From an uncultured Eubacteriales bacterium (GTDB taxonomy: Bacteria; Bacillota; Clostridia; Lachnospirales; Lachnospiraceae), in contig ONEC01000016.1 in NCBI GenBank assembly GCA_900316715.1, positions 1 to 37,640 of the forward strand: a stretch of 37,640 nucleotides of DNA. The letters are read 5' to 3'. Shown piece by piece: positions 9,802-18,227 of this stretch. Under the pieces are notes generated by a model. The model ran no database searches and had not been told where the DNA came from. It worked only from the letters and a program-made list of their open reading frames with translations. Made by a program: the position numbers and the translations under genes. Numbering within the stretch: position 1 is the stretch's first letter; each line of letters opens with the position of its first letter.

Positions 9802-9885
9802 TATGTAAGCCTCATATCTCCCGCATCTTCGTTTCCAGGTTATACTCCTGCGCTGTCGTCCTTAATATACCATAAAAATGTTTAA

Positions 9886-9915
9886 TAAAAAAATCCCGCA
9901 GATAATCTGCGGGAT
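9886..9915 (-). terminator. Intrinsic terminator of the PBECR4-like gene
   Basis: 10-bp stem (9893-9902 / 9906-9915) followed on the minus strand by a T-run at 9886-9892. It lies 25 bp after the stop codon of the gene at 9940 and forms the left edge of the A+T-rich cassette. Confidence 0.92.
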
Positions 9916-9939
9916 AAATATCTTATAATCAATTAATAT

Positions 9940-10629
9940 CTACGATTCTCCATTATCGTCATTCTCTTCATCAGTTATATATTCAGCAATAACGTCTGGC
10001 TCATTCAGAATAATCTGATCTGTTCCATATTTTTTATGTCTAAAGAGATTCTTTCTATCGCCATTTATTATTTTGTCTTTAAGCATCACATATGTATATA
10101 TACCGCCATATTCAACTTTCTTCTTCACACCAAATGATATAATCCTACAAGAAGAATCAGAACCACTTCTATGCTTCAAAAATATAAAGACAGTTTCATT
10201 TCTTTTATTACTCTTACTTTTAATAATATAATCACAATTAATCAATGAATTATTCTGTGGTGAATCCTTTGGAGAGTATATATATACAATATTATCATTA
10301 TCAAGATATTCTTCGAGAAACCTTAATTCCGATATTCTTTTTTCAACATCCTTCTCATCATTTGGTTTTCCTTTATAAAAAGCACTTTTTTGTAAATACT
10401 CTTCTGTTACATTATTATTTCCCTCTAAAATCCATGGAATTACTCTATTTTTTGATCTGGGAATCTGGATATCCGTCAAATATTGAAGGCCAGCCACATG
10501 ATGAAAATCGCTTTCCTTGAAATCTATTAAAAAAACTTCTATCCTTTTATTTTTTGCTACATGAAAAATATATTTTGTTGTTTGAGCTATTTTTTGAAAG
10601 TTTAATGCACATTCCTGAAATATATCCAT
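9940..10629 (-). CDS. PBECR4-like predicted nuclease
   Basis: 229 residues, strongly A+T-rich codons. The block IEVFLIDFKESDFHHVAGLQ followed by YLTDIQIPR, and the later SLINCDYIIKSK and TVFIFLKHR strands, resemble the PBECR4 domain (phage Barnase-EndoU-ColicinE5/D-RelE-like nuclease 4), predicted in phages and mobile elements to be a metal-independent RNase. The His pair in DFHHVAGL is a candidate active-site position. The C-terminus is acidic. Start ATG 10629 follows AAAGGAG; only this ribosome site separates the start from the terminator at 10641-10674, so translation depends on read-through of that terminator. Recognition is from memory of the family pattern, so moderately sure. Role inferred: toxin or anti-phage effector. 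Confidence 0.65.
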   Translation of the reverse strand: MDIFQECALNFQKIAQTTKYIFHVAKNKRIEVFLIDFKESDFHHVAGLQYLTDIQIPRSKNRVIPWILEGNNNVTEEYLQKSAFYKGKPNDEKDVEKRISELRFLEEYLDNDNIVYIYSPKDSPQNNSLINCDYIIKSKSNKRNETVFIFLKHRSGSDSSCRIISFGVKKKVEYGGIYTYVMLKDKIINGDRKNLFRHKKYGTDQIILNEPDVIAEYITDEENDDNGES

Positions 10630-10640
10630 AGAGCTCCTTT

Positions 10641-10674
10641 AGTAAAACAAAAGCCCTGCGCACGGCAAGGCTTT
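10641..10674 (-). terminator. Intrinsic terminator between the structured RNA and the PBECR4-like gene
   Basis: 10-bp stem with one G-U pair (10650-10659 / 10665-10674), 5-nt loop, then TGTTTT on the minus strand. Its 3' arm and loop (10657-10663, GTGCGCA) can pair with TGTGCAC at 10805-10811 in the leader, which would break this hairpin. Confidence 0.88.
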
Positions 10675-10829
10675 GTTATCATAATATGCAACTTTCTTTC
10701 ACCGAAGCTAAGATGGATTATGGTGAGTTGCCACCTTTGTGAGCCTCCATGTCAACCGCACTCCATCACGGCTTTCACTTCACAGGCGAAGTACATTTTA
10801 ATGAGTGCACAGCTCAAGAAGTCTCCTTC
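10644..10829 (-). ncRNA. Structured RNA / leader of about 185 nt upstream of the PBECR4-like gene
   Basis: A consensus-like promoter (10835-10866) and an intrinsic terminator (10641-10674) bracket this stretch. Foldable elements on the minus strand: AGAAG-GAGA-CTTCT (10821-10830 area), GCACTC/GAGTGC (10803-10808 with 10758-10763) enclosing ACTTC/GAAGT, a GGTG/CACC hairpin inside ATGGA/TCCAT, and the terminator. An alternative long-range pair, TGTGCAC (10805-10811) with GTGCGCA (10657-10663), competes with both the first stem and the terminator. I do not recognise it as tmRNA, RNase P, SRP RNA, T-box or a common riboswitch. It could be a standalone small RNA, an RNA antitoxin or an attenuator. 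It also contains a 21-codon frame (10752-10817). Confidence 0.6.
10752..10817 (-). CDS. Possible 21-residue leader peptide inside the structured RNA
   Basis: TTG at 10817 follows AGAAGGAGA by about 5 bp and opens 21 codons to TGA at 10752. The peptide has three Cys and ends MECG. An internal ATG at residue 8 has no ribosome site. The good ribosome-site spacing is the only evidence; the same bases also form the RNA stems, so this could be coincidence. Confidence 0.25.
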   Translation of the reverse strand: MSCALIKMYFACEVKAVMECG

Positions 10830-10834
10830 TGATT

Positions 10835-10866
10835 ATTATACTATCCTTACAAATATCTTTTGTCAA
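10835..10866 (-). promoter_or_regulatory. Strong sigma-A-type promoter for the structured RNA
   Basis: Minus strand TTGACA (10861-10866), then TAGTAT at 17 bp (10838-10843), overlapping a TATAAT at 10835-10840 (20 bp). It begins 18 bp after the helicase stop codon, so the RNA and nuclease are transcribed independently of the helicase. Confidence 0.75.
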
Positions 10867-10884
10867 GCCATTTCATTTCCATAA

Positions 10885-13842
10885 TTATTTCTGATGTTTA
10901 AATGCTATCTCTAGAAGTTCGGCAGCTACTTTTTCTGATTTAATTCTCATAAGATTATCCCATGCATCGTCTCTGCCTAGAAGATTCATTCCACCGTGCC
11001 ATACTATATCACTGTCTATCACAGCAAAATGTTCTTCTACCTCTTCTCTTTCTACGACTTCTACTCCCGATGCAATCAAAGTAGTAATCATACTTGAAAA
11101 GAAAAAAGAATTTCCAAACATTACCTCATCAGGATATGTAGTTATTACAGTAACTTTTACACCAGCCTCCTGTCTTTTCTTAATAATGTTCAGTAGTCTA
11201 TCAATCTTCCTAATTTCGATATCAGGACTTGAGATTATAATTCTTTCATTTGCTTCAACCAGATCACGTTCAAATGTATCTATGTAATTATCTGAAGAAT
11301 AAATAGCATTAACACTTTGTTTATTATTAACCACATCTGTCTGTGCAGTAAATCCTATCTCCTTATATGCTCTAAGACGCTTTGAATACATCCGTTCAAA
11401 CATTCCTATATGTGAATCCACATAATCATAAACAACCACTTCTTCTTTTCCCGGATTATTTCTCCCAAGCCTGCCCAGATATTGTTCCAGTCTTCCATCA
11501 AACGATACTGGTGCGGCTAACATTAATGTATCAAGACGTGGAAAATCAAAACCTTCTCCTATTTTCTGTCCTGTTGCAATAAGAATAAGTGTTTCCTTAT
11601 CCGAAACACTTTTTAACTTGTTTCTAATCTCTGCATTTTCTTTATCTGTATTATCTCCATACATTAGGAAAACATTCTTTTCATCAACGGATAGTTTATC
11701 ATATAAGATCTTTGCCTGTTCTTTAAGGCGCGTAAGAATTATAGGTGTTTTTCCCTTTTTTACTACATCTTTCACATCTAAAATAATCATATCATTTCTA
11801 TCAGGTGAACCACTTATAAGTTTGTATAAAGCATTTACATCATTCTTATCCTCATTAATTCTTACAGTCCTTGTGTATCTTGGAATAACAATGTGAGGTA
11901 TACCTAACTTCTGATTTCTTTCAATAGCTGTATACGAATGCCTGATAGGACCTATCAGCATGAATATTTCTTTATCAAGATTATCGCTTCTCTTAGGCGT
12001 AGCTGTAACACCATACACATATCTTGCATTAACCTTCTGCATAACATTCATTGCTGTATTTGAAGCCACATGATGACATTCATCATAGATGACAAGCCCA
12101 TACTGATTTAGCATCTTATGATAATTTCCTTTGGCATATAGAGAGCCTACCATTGCCACATCAATTATTCCGGTTAATGTATCTTTCCCTGAAGCTAAAC
12201 TTCCAACAACATCATCCCTTCTTTTCTCACGGCCAGTTTTAGTTTTATATATTGGAGGTTCTTCATCAATGATTAAAAACTTATGAAGGGACTCTACCCA
12301 CTGTTCAAGTAAATCCTTGCTTTGGAGAATAATCAAAGTATTCACTTTCCTTTTTGCTATAATATAACTAGATACAACAGTCTTTCCAAATGCAGTTGCT
12401 GCACTGAGAACACCATTATCATATGAAAGCATTTTTTCTACAGCTTCTTTCTGTTCATCCTTTAGTTCTCCATTAAATGCAACATTGATAGGAATACCTT
12501 TCTCTCTTTCATCTTTTATATCATAAGGAATATCTGAATTCTTACATTCTGCTATTATCTCTTCCTTTAATCCACGAGGAAGCTTAATATATCCATCTAT
12601 ATCTTTTCCCAAATACACTGCCTGAAACTGATAATAATTTGACTTATGCATTCTAAACCTTTTTATATATTCAGGGTTATCAAATGCCGCCAGACCCCTT
12701 ATCTGGTTTTGAAGTCTCGGAGATATATTAAGTGCATCGATATAAGCCCCATCCGCTAGAGTAAGGTGAATTTTTCCAACAACGTCCTCCTTTACAAAAG
12801 CGTCGTGTTTCTTCCACGGTTTTACTCTTTTATCCTGGTTATTAACAATAACAGAATATGGATTACTTGATGCCAGTTCAGTCTGCCATTTCTCCATATA
12901 GCAATTGATATCATCGATTGATAGTCGTATATCATCACGATAAATTAGTGACCATTGATCAGGATATGCATTCCAGTTTTCATCTACAAAAGCACTATTT
13001 CCATCCTTTAGAGCTTTTCCCTGAAGTGGAAGCGCAATAAGATTTCCTAAGCTGTTAGCACTATCCTGACATGGATACATTCTGTCATAGTATTTGAAGG
13101 TCTTAAGGTTATATGACATCATTCCTTTATCAAGGAGCATAAATCCAAAATTGCGAGCTATTATGGCATTTACAGGGCATGAAAACAATATCCAAACATG
13201 AGCTCCTCTTCCAGAACGAGAACGCTCTACAAGAGGATGAATACCATTTGATTCACATATCTTTCGGAGAGCATTTACCTCGTCCTGCCACTCATTATCG
13301 GTATTAGCAAAATCCGTTTGTTCTGAGCCTCTCTCATGATTATCGAAATCATACACAATAAATCTCACGGTACCGTTTTCATGAAGCGGATATATACCAA
13401 TCACATCTGTACCATCTTCTTTATATCCAAACAAATGTTTCTTTACCGTTTTGGGATCAAGCTTTGTCCAGCATCTATTTTCACATTCATCACAAGGATA
13501 CTTTTTATCTCCCCGTTGCTTCGGGCATAGAGCATACTCCCACCTGTTATCGCACTGTGGAAAATAACCTCCATTTTTCCCACGCTTTGCAAACACATCC
13601 TCCCTTCCCCAGAACATGGAATAAAAGCGGATTACCATTTCATCAGTTATATATTTCGAATTAATTCTTCCTCCCTGATCCGGATCATACTTCTCCGATT
13701 CCTCTATCACATCTTCAAAAACATCTTTTAATTCATACGGAATGTTTTCTTTATCAAGAATAGCCTTTAATTCAATATTTTCCACTTGAAGTTTTCTAAC
13801 CAATTCTCGTAGTGAATCAAGATTATAAGATTCTATATTCAT
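10885..13842 (-). CDS. TOTE-type primase-helicase-PLD protein (conflict system)
   Basis: 985 residues. An N-terminal coiled coil is followed by a Cys cluster (about residues 97-124: CDN, LCPK, PCDECENRCW) and an archaeo-eukaryotic primase-like domain (about 65-330) with the catalytic FIVYDFDNH (DFD about 165-167) and SRSGRGAHVWIL. Next is a superfamily II helicase (about 455-830): AATAFGKTV (Walker A), VIYDECHH (motif II), VTATPKR (III), ILIATGQKIGEGFDFPRLD (V) and QYLGRLGR (VI). A C-terminal phospholipase-D-like nuclease domain (about 860-980) has HFAVIDSDIVWHGGMN. In that HKD motif the Lys position is Ala. Such AEP-helicase-PLD proteins are described in TOTE biological-conflict systems. ATG at 13842 is preferred over the GTG one codon earlier, with AGGTG upstream. 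A+T-rich relative to neighbours, which suggests acquisition. Confidence 0.85.
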   Translation of the reverse strand: MNIESYNLDSLRELVRKLQVENIELKAILDKENIPYELKDVFEDVIEESEKYDPDQGGRINSKYITDEMVIRFYSMFWGREDVFAKRGKNGGYFPQCDNRWEYALCPKQRGDKKYPCDECENRCWTKLDPKTVKKHLFGYKEDGTDVIGIYPLHENGTVRFIVYDFDNHERGSEQTDFANTDNEWQDEVNALRKICESNGIHPLVERSRSGRGAHVWILFSCPVNAIIARNFGFMLLDKGMMSYNLKTFKYYDRMYPCQDSANSLGNLIALPLQGKALKDGNSAFVDENWNAYPDQWSLIYRDDIRLSIDDINCYMEKWQTELASSNPYSVIVNNQDKRVKPWKKHDAFVKEDVVGKIHLTLADGAYIDALNISPRLQNQIRGLAAFDNPEYIKRFRMHKSNYYQFQAVYLGKDIDGYIKLPRGLKEEIIAECKNSDIPYDIKDEREKGIPINVAFNGELKDEQKEAVEKMLSYDNGVLSAATAFGKTVVSSYIIAKRKVNTLIILQSKDLLEQWVESLHKFLIIDEEPPIYKTKTGREKRRDDVVGSLASGKDTLTGIIDVAMVGSLYAKGNYHKMLNQYGLVIYDECHHVASNTAMNVMQKVNARYVYGVTATPKRSDNLDKEIFMLIGPIRHSYTAIERNQKLGIPHIVIPRYTRTVRINEDKNDVNALYKLISGSPDRNDMIILDVKDVVKKGKTPIILTRLKEQAKILYDKLSVDEKNVFLMYGDNTDKENAEIRNKLKSVSDKETLILIATGQKIGEGFDFPRLDTLMLAAPVSFDGRLEQYLGRLGRNNPGKEEVVVYDYVDSHIGMFERMYSKRLRAYKEIGFTAQTDVVNNKQSVNAIYSSDNYIDTFERDLVEANERIIISSPDIEIRKIDRLLNIIKKRQEAGVKVTVITTYPDEVMFGNSFFFSSMITTLIASGVEVVEREEVEEHFAVIDSDIVWHGGMNLLGRDDAWDNLMRIKSEKVAAELLEIAFKHQK

Positions 13843-13872
13843 CACAACACCTCATAGAGCACATTATTGCCT

Positions 13873-13902
13873 ACTATATATAAAATAACATACAAATACC
13901 AA
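13873..13902 (-). promoter_or_regulatory. Probable promoter of the primase-helicase gene
   Basis: Minus strand TTGGTA (13897-13902), 18-bp spacer, TATAGT (13873-13878), about 30 bp upstream of the start codon. Reasonable but not perfect match. Confidence 0.4.
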
Positions 13903-13908
13903 CATTCA

Positions 13909-13944
13909 ATAAAAAATCCCGTAGGATAATTCTCCTACGGGATT
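13909..13944 (-). terminator. Intrinsic terminator, right edge of the helicase cassette
   Basis: 12-bp stem (13915-13926 / 13933-13944) with six A on plus, giving a T-run on minus at 13911-13916. It lies 28 bp downstream of the orphan copy of the gdhA 3' end, and may be the original gdhA terminator. Confidence 0.88.
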
Positions 13945-13971
13945 ATGTGTTCTTATAAGTTTTTTAATAAA

Positions 13972-14003
13972 TTAGCAAACACCCTGAGCGATCATAGCTT
14001 CAA
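13972..14003 (-). repeat. Orphan 32-bp copy of the gdhA 3' end (left direct repeat)
   Basis: Identical over 32 bp to 16857-16888, which are the last codons and stop of gdhA (EAMIAQGVC then TAA on minus). Identity ends abruptly on both sides. It has the form of an att-type direct repeat left when DNA inserts into the 3' end of a gene and restores the coding end. No integrase lies between the copies. Confidence 0.9.
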
Positions 14004-14089
14004 ATCAGTGTTCGGCAAAGATACTGGGGTTCCGGGAGGTGGTGTATATTACGTGTGTATTATGAATTCAGATTATTGTAATAGATATT

Positions 14090-14774: not shown

Positions 14775-15200
14775 TTATTTCTTCTTAAGTTTCTCCACCA
14801 TATTTGCAAGGGAAAGGAAATGATCCGCCTTAATAATAGCTAACCCCTGCCCCTCATCTCCAAGCACCACAAGAGTGTCTCCCGGGGAAATATCGAATAG
14901 TTTCCTGGCCTTGGCAGGAATTACAATCTGTCCTTTGTCCCCCACTGTCACAAGTCCGAATAGGTGTTTTCCCTTCGGTGCCACTCCAAGTCCCATATTT
15001 TCCCCTGGCTCATAGTTAACCAGATCATCTAGTGACACACCAAATGCTTCCGCTAATAGCCGACTCTTCTCAATATCCGGAATCGATTCCCCCGACTCCC
15101 ACTTTGCAACCGCCTGCCTGGAAACACCGACTATTTCTGCCAACTCCTCCTGTGTCATCTGATTTAACTTTCTAAGCTGAACTATATTATCCTTAAACAT
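14775..15200 (-). CDS. XRE helix-turn-helix regulator with AbrB/SpoVT domain
   Basis: 141 residues. The N-terminal helix-turn-helix (about 1-62: LRKLNQMTQEELAEIVGVSR QAVAKWESG in two parts) is joined to a C-terminal AbrB-type swapped-hairpin (about 80-125: VTVGDKGQIVIPAKARKLFD, then ISPGDTLVVLGDEGQGLAII). Two DNA-binding folds in one small protein occur in Firmicutes regulators of membrane or transport genes. AGGAGAAAAAAT before ATG at 15200 sets the start. It starts 43 bp after the acyltransferase gene and is probably cotranscribed with it, so it may regulate that operon. Confidence 0.88.
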   Translation of the reverse strand: MFKDNIVQLRKLNQMTQEELAEIVGVSRQAVAKWESGESIPDIEKSRLLAEAFGVSLDDLVNYEPGENMGLGVAPKGKHLFGLVTVGDKGQIVIPAKARKLFDISPGDTLVVLGDEGQGLAIIKADHFLSLANMVEKLKKK

Positions 15201-15243
15201 ATTTTTTCTCCTATATACTTCATTCGTTCCGGTCATTCAGAGA

Positions 15244-16856: not shown

Positions 16857-18227
<1,371 letters not shown>

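Follow-up and report, generated by a model that had tools for sequence, protein, structure and literature searches.

Type III toxin-antitoxin loci, as outlined in one account (PMC5086642), consist of a promoter, a pseudoknotted RNA, a Rho-independent terminator and an open reading frame (ORF) for an RNase-like protein. In the ToxIN, CptIN and TenpIN families, the toxin is homologous to ToxN and the RNA is described as made of 34-50-nt repeats (PMC12373285). RNA antitoxins are also reported for toxins other than ToxN: in the AbiF/RCd22 system of Clostridioides difficile, a structured RNA neutralises the toxin in cis and in trans (PMC12373285), and the toxin of AvcID is a deoxycytidylate deaminase (PMC10511110). 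Here we analyze a stretch of 37,640 nucleotides from an uncultured Eubacteriales bacterium of the family Lachnospiraceae (GenBank assembly GCA_900316715.1, contig ONEC01000016.1, positions 1 to 37,640; hereafter, the window), in which an RNA related to the Rfam family drum (RF02958) is followed by a terminator-like hairpin and a gene for a protein of the PBECR4 family (Pfam PF18813). As far as can be read from the sequence, this order is that of the type III loci, and we consider it probable that the drum-type RNA and PBECR4 constitute a type III-like toxin-antitoxin module, in which PBECR4 would be toxic and the RNA would inhibit it.

We did not assign this pair to the ToxIN, CptIN or TenpIN families because the putative toxin is not ToxN-like, PBECR4 taking the place of the ToxN homolog with no match to ToxN, and because drum is usually single. 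In contrast to the repeats described for those families, drum typically forms one unit of ~110 nt with two interlocked pseudoknots, although the class B and class C RNAs of sister PBECR4 genes (see below) do have two units. The AbiF/RCd22 system, as described, likewise has a non-ToxN RNase-like toxin encoded after a structured RNA but differs in both components, namely a HEPN protein and abiF RNA motifs, which represent other protein and RNA families. AvcID is a further case of an RNA antitoxin with a non-ToxN toxin.

The evidence that the RNA and the protein belong together comes from searches in both directions. Starting from the RNA, drum matches above the cut-off were found at 25 places in 21 of 250 genomes of the bacterial family and in none of 14 control genomes; PBECR4 is present in 44 of the family genomes and in one control genome. 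In 18 of these 25 cases, drum is followed on the same strand, after 48-142 nt, by the start of a match to the PBECR4 domain; the other seven comprise one contig end, one short PBECR4 remnant and five places without a detectable gene (tblastn). In a phylum-wide search, drum was found in two of 398 genomes, one with a PBECR4 remnant (locus L109) and one without (L108; tblastn). Because the strict filters of the 250-genome and 398-genome searches missed the window itself and genome G180, the counts for the family and the phylum are lower bounds.

Starting from the protein, we searched a genome collection of 84,980 species and viral contigs for the motif of the PBECR4 alignment A2, retaining the best 80 of 166 qualifying stretches from the genome collection. 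A drum match (covariance model R1) lies within 400 nt upstream, on the same strand, in 82 of the resulting 84 loci; given that all 14 rows of A2 carry a drum RNA, this fraction reflects linkage inside that subfamily. One of the two exceptions (L193) begins at a contig end, and in the other (L136) an insertion in the spacer splits drum from the ORF. Judged by eye, this insertion (about 780-2290) is transposon-like, IS3-like in appearance without a family search, and lies inside the terminator hairpin, leaving the PBECR4 ORF intact. The titles of the loci include many Lachnospiraceae and 11 Treponema; among the carriers is the cultured rumen species Butyrivibrio proteoclasticus, strain P18 (L122). 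Viral contigs contributed four loci retrieved with the drum-type alignment, three with drum and one cut at a contig end; among 50,697 phage records, no drum-type PBECR4 was found with two queries. A plasmid search with one drum-type protein query (tblastn) returned 21 records, 20 from Enterococcus and one from Streptococcus; all four examined contain a drum-type RNA (24.3, 37.5 and, for two identical RNAs, 41.9 bits each), and a promoter-like site as well as a terminator-like hairpin can be discerned in them by eye. In two Enterococcus plasmids the setting is defence-like, the module lying beside genes for TIR, DUF6414 and AAA ATPase proteins in one (L197) and adjoining an AbiH gene in the other (L199). 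R1 was also applied, as a control, to 77 sources that contain other PBECR4 genes, genes for TOTE proteins or, in a few cases, drum; matches below E 1e-6 occur only at the window locus (L001), L089, L108 and L109. A midpoint-rooted tree that combines 77 drum-linked loci with 28 of the 30 others of the family (the short L078 and L092 were dropped, and the fragments L081, L086, L090 and L096-L099 left out) places all 77 drum-linked tips in one clade (support 0.78) with a single change of label. No intact ORF of the drum clade with upstream sequence was found to lack the RNA among the sampled loci.

The window RNA is a divergent homolog of drum (40.3 bits, E=3.1e-5) that aligns, under the family cut-off, over the whole length of the model of a family typed by Rfam as a small RNA (sRNA) gene; relatives from the same protein clade exceed the cut-off (44.4 bits for L051, 50.9 bits for L050). 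The helices of the RF02958 consensus are present, with some non-standard pairs in the full-length alignment. The R1 model gives the window RNA 60.6 bits, a score to be read in light of the fact that the window is, like L089, among its 22 training rows. The fold combines nested helices with two interlocked pseudoknots: PK1 joins the loop of the first hairpin with a downstream stretch (GATGGA with TCCATC in the window), and PK2 joins the loop of the second hairpin with a stretch 3' of the conserved GAAAGAAA (GCAAC with GTTGC). In alignment A4, which was fitted to the nested helices alone and includes every match with E<=1 (92, four of them with E >0.001), 91.4% of PK1 cells and 77.6% of PK2 cells are paired, with compensatory changes in 6/6 and 5/5 pairs, respectively. 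The covariation score of the pseudoknots is 0.611, compared with 0.217 for shuffled alignments (0/500) and at most 0.127 after sliding, and RNAalifold applied to alignment A1 selected five PK1 pairs unprompted. A survey table counts drum among new K-turn predictions (PMC12510878).

The layout between promoter and ORF recurs among the 82 linked loci. Between the end of drum and the start codon chosen for the ORF lie 37-66 nt in 68 loci and 79-138 nt in 14, and the spacer contains an intrinsic-terminator-like hairpin with a T-run in all 82, compared with 5.6% of shuffled spacers. When up to two mismatches are allowed, drum is preceded by a TTGACA/TATAAT-like site in 68 loci (6.4% of shuffles), and with up to three in 75 (36.6% of shuffles); these shuffles, and those for the H-type element below, preserve base composition only. 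At L089, such a site was discerned by eye. A single drum match lies upstream in 80 of the 82 loci, so that tandem repeats are not the rule; in L156 and L158 the ORF is preceded by two successive copies (of which the outer one in L158 is weak, 22.6 bits), and an extra copy follows the ORF in L170, with a broken second PBECR4, and in L154 and L126, where no second PBECR4 was recognised.

The succession of RNA, terminator and ORF is typical of attenuating riboswitches, and, together with the tight spacing, this likeness would fit a drum RNA that acts as a cis-acting leader, that is, a ligand- or protein-sensing attenuator of read-through into PBECR4 with no role as an antitoxin. We regard this explanation as unlikely. 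Drum has 7.9 bases complementary to the initial 30 nt of its cognate spacer, compared with 8.7 for swapped and 8.0 for shuffled ones; the lack of an excess argues against an attenuator, and an antiterminator switch is disfavoured on the same count. Furthermore, the five drum RNAs without an ORF still score 70-94 bits, three of them 88-94, and unrelated-looking pseudoknot RNAs occupy the same place in other PBECR4 clades.

The state of the genes next to the RNA bears on the role of drum as an inhibitor. Assigned by hand, the 26 drum RNAs (the 25 above and the window) include 12 that precede an intact ORF, seven a broken one and five none, with L043 ambiguous and one at a contig end. An orphan antitoxin would be tolerable and an orphan toxin would not, so this pattern of decay fits, and is suggestive of, a toxin-antitoxin pair. 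The loss of the ORF with retention of the RNA agrees better with an inhibitor than with a positive cofactor, namely an RNA that activates or targets the nuclease within a ribonucleoprotein. The idea of a cofactor draws on the RNA-partnered toxin AbiF, for which structural links to an ancestral Cas13 are described (PMC12373285), so that RNA-toxin pairs can be close to RNA-targeting systems. Drum itself is conserved over its full length in alignments A3 and A4, with no variable guide stretch seen, and we give the cofactor explanation little credence.

The PBECR4 protein of the window matches PF18813 well above the curated cut-off of 27 bits (49.1 bits, E=1.2e-12), which bears out its identification in a preliminary description of this DNA. 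Each of the 74 rows of A5, the alignment of drum-type proteins, has a PF18813 match. In this alignment, position 44 is His throughout and position 165 is Ser in 59 rows and Thr in 15. PBECR domains are described as having a His in the N-terminal helix and a C-terminal Ser/Thr site (PMC5512222), and by likeness to this description His44 and Ser/Thr165 are the predicted active site. The PBECR domains of polyvalent proteins belong to the same Pfam-named domain group and have the same His and Ser/Thr site; they are reported from phage and conjugative-element proteins, either alone or within large proteins (PMC5512222), and that paper on these domains makes no use of the word 'noncoding'.

Beyond the drum clade, PBECR4 genes appear to have other RNA partners. 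Among the 30 PF18813 loci of the family that are not linked to drum, 14 have an upstream motif that we denote class B, five have another, class C, and 11 have neither. Class B consists of a leader hairpin, two units of ~50 nt (in most loci) and a terminator-like hairpin, followed by the ORF. In 11 of the 14 motif loci (without L071, L074 and L075; two rows miss part of H0), 99.3% of the cells of the loop-to-tail helices H0-A3, H2-A1 and H1-A2 are paired, and the covariation score is 0.427, compared with 0.209 for shuffled alignments (0/500). Class C, represented by five loci, consists of two H-type pseudoknots of 33 nt, with 97.7% of cells paired and a covariation score of 0.393, compared with 0.249 (0/500; 8 distinct units). 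For both classes, the helices were read by eye on the sequences that were then counted and are thereby favoured over slid controls. The genome of the window has a second PBECR4 gene (L072, 1076-1735 on the reverse strand of contig C135 of genome G000), and this gene is preceded by a class B RNA, not by drum.

A simple H-type element was detected in 12 of the 30 loci and in 8 of 300 shuffles. Of 29 non-drum loci, 20 have a terminator and 12 a repeat; the corresponding numbers for 81 control genes are 18 and 6. The start codons in this count were chosen by rule, and some are probably wrong. At the Rfam cut-off, there were no matches at the RNAs of the 13 class B and four class C loci searched, and the only two Rfam matches in those 20 sources lie away from the RNAs. 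In a profile comparison, drum-type and class B proteins join over 120 N-terminal columns (probability 96%, E 3.9e-9); a class B query retrieved two phage records and the class B alignment one viral-contig locus. By eye, L093 and L094 have a further common RNA-like stretch upstream of PBECR4, unlike classes A to C, that is accompanied by a promoter-like site as well as a terminator-like hairpin; L094 also contains a Clostridiales-1 RNA (RF01699) ~1.2 kb past the PBECR4 gene. With somewhat less confidence than for the drum-PBECR4 module itself, we lean towards the wider view that PBECR4 represents a new superfamily of toxins neutralised by RNA in type III-like systems, with at least three pseudoknotted RNA architectures, namely single drum (class A), duplicated ~50-nt class B and tandem 33-nt class C, whereby drum would acquire a function.

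Several observations weigh against a toxin-antitoxin module. The window RNA falls 2.7 bits short of the RF02958 gathering cut-off (43 bits), and the loci usually have one RNA unit, not a tandem array of the ToxIN type. Five drum RNAs stand without a PBECR4 gene; conversely, the short ORF fragments L081, L086 and L090 of the drum clade have no R1 match at E<=1. Divergence of the RNA correlates with that of the protein (r=0.75, n=76), as would be expected of any linked pair. On the protein side, no match to ToxN was found in Pfam at E<=0.01 among the 74 members, a sequence search of the PDB returned no chain below E=1, and the putative BECR fold of PBECR4 follows the label given by Pfam.

The layout matches that of type III loci, and AbiF and AvcID provide non-ToxN precedents; on these grounds, our proposal is that binding of drum inhibits PBECR4. 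A sigma-70-type promoter would yield mainly a short RNA, given that the intrinsic terminator would halt most transcripts, and the mRNA for the nuclease would arise from rare read-through. With its two pseudoknots, the RNA might bind PBECR4 and block its His/Ser-Thr RNase site. Should the supply of RNA drop, for example when a phage shuts off transcription or the element is lost, the nuclease, as the longer-lived partner, would be freed and might cut cellular RNA.

The preliminary description had joined PBECR4 not with the RNA but with the adjacent gene for a TOTE-type primase-helicase-PLD (phospholipase D-like) protein, as the RNA- and DNA-acting arms of one acquired defence island. The domain assignment holds: the ORF (986 aa from a GTG start, 985 aa from an ATG start) has all the domains of the TOTE proteins (PF22548) in one chain, with Pfam matches to AEP-TOTE (E=7e-70), ResIII (1e-19), Helicase_C (4e-7) and PLDc_2 (6e-7) and the motifs DFD at 166, SGRGAHVW at 211, AATAFGKT at 482 and DECH at 588 (986-aa numbering). 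Both genes are indeed richer in A+T than their surroundings (G+C 0.286 for PBECR4 and 0.354 for TOTE, compared with 0.382-0.453 for six neighbouring genes and 0.410 for the window), and terminator-like hairpins with T-runs are found at both ends of the cassette; other weak Rfam matches there, at 9880-9988 and 13905-14021, were taken as chance, terminator-only matches. The pair recurs in one genome outside this one, G651 of the same genus, so that co-occurrence elsewhere does exist, and in G651 the TOTE-drum-PBECR4 block is bounded by repeats of the gdhA 3' end. Nevertheless, TOTE lies near only one of the 84 protein-fetched PBECR4 loci (L113, which is the contig of G651). Among 23 other TOTE contigs taken from the top of the match list, none has a drum match, and one holds a PBECR4 match about 186 kb distant. 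Among 41 genomes of the genus, TOTE (E<=1e-30) is present in five and drum-type PBECR4 in two, so that the cassette is not core DNA; G686, G687 and G657 (the last with a broken gene) have TOTE with no drum-type PBECR4 match. TOTE genes decay as well, being split or interrupted by stop codons in G043:C1, G188:C50, G038:C2 and G657:C23. Thus, TOTE adjoins the module in two genomes but is no constant part of it, and two arms of one defence system is a highly improbable explanation. The conserved unit is RNA and nuclease, not helicase and nuclease; what constantly accompanies this PBECR4 clade is the RNA, noted at first as an intervening one.

That the cassette is an acquired island is supported by comparison with relatives. 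In G651, the gdhA 3' end and a duplicate of this end enclose TOTE (74% identical), drum and PBECR4 (83%), and in G180 such 3'-end copies enclose drum-PBECR4 without TOTE; the homology of G180 with the window stops at 10873, 12 nt before the TOTE stop codon. In the window, a gdhA copy at 13972-14003, just upstream of TOTE, is identical over 32 bp to 16857-16888, and the ~60 bp beside it recur next to the module in G651 and G180; an alternative assignment of 13972-14065 as a decayed 5S rRNA was dropped, this stretch holding the gdhA 3'-end copy. Between the copy and gdhA lies a GNAT/helix-turn-helix (HTH)/acyltransferase segment. No integrase was found among the Pfam-annotated genes of the cassette. 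Given the repeats in the window, G651 and G180, the gdhA 3' end looks like an insertion hotspot that gathers small cassettes. Direct repeats of 32 bp with the recurring 60-bp neighbour flank varied small cassettes in several species (L233, L237, L232), and G657 has an 8.4-kb segment at the gdhA 3' end. Within the window, one ORF (14775-15236, reverse strand) fuses an HTH with a MazE-type antitoxin domain, and both flanking genes match acetyl- and acyltransferase families (Pfam).

Table 1. Features of the drum-PBECR4 locus and its surroundings in the window
Feature	Position	Strand	Basis
TOTE-type primase-helicase-PLD gene	10885..13845	-	Pfam; neighbour of the module here and in G651, no constant part
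PBECR4 (PF18813) RNase-like protein, 229 aa, proposed toxin	9940..10629	-	Pfam; conserved His44 and Ser/Thr165
Promoter-like site of the drum-type RNA, TTGACA-17 nt-TAGTAT	10838..10866	-	Two mismatches in total
Drum-type structured RNA, two pseudoknots, proposed RNA antitoxin	10684..10788	-	RF02958 match; model R1; covariation
Intrinsic-terminator-like hairpin in the drum/PBECR4 spacer, AAAGCCTTGCCGTGCGCAGGGCTTT and T-run	10641..10676	-	Sequence; equivalents in relatives
Terminator-like hairpin 3' of PBECR4, T-run	about 9885..9930	-	Sequence; weak Rfam matches over it
Terminator-like hairpin upstream of the TOTE gene, T-run	13905..13944	-	Sequence; weak Rfam matches
gdhA 3'-end copy and ~60 bp, likely integration scar	13972..14065	-	Repeat comparison with 16857-16888
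gdhA (Glu/Leu/Phe/Val dehydrogenase), 3' end an apparent insertion hotspot	16857..18203	-	Pfam; comparison with relatives

In our literature search, the name PBECR4 was not found in any paper, and the passages of the papers that mention drum give it no function. Nothing in these passages ties PBECR4 and drum together or either to an antitoxin role; the search did not extend to the original description of drum, reportedly a paper of 2017, so that an earlier mention is possible. If the proposed module is real, an RNA family hitherto without explanation gets a job, and a known type of self-poisoning switch gains a toxin family. The proposal assigns to an orphan Rfam RNA a function that can be tested directly, and a module found in gut clostridia, treponemes and enterococcal plasmids would have a predicted RNase domain as its toxin. 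The different RNAs upstream of PBECR4 genes suggest that one nuclease family has swapped its RNA inhibitors more than once, which would make PBECR4 a good system for studying the evolution of RNA-protein inhibition.

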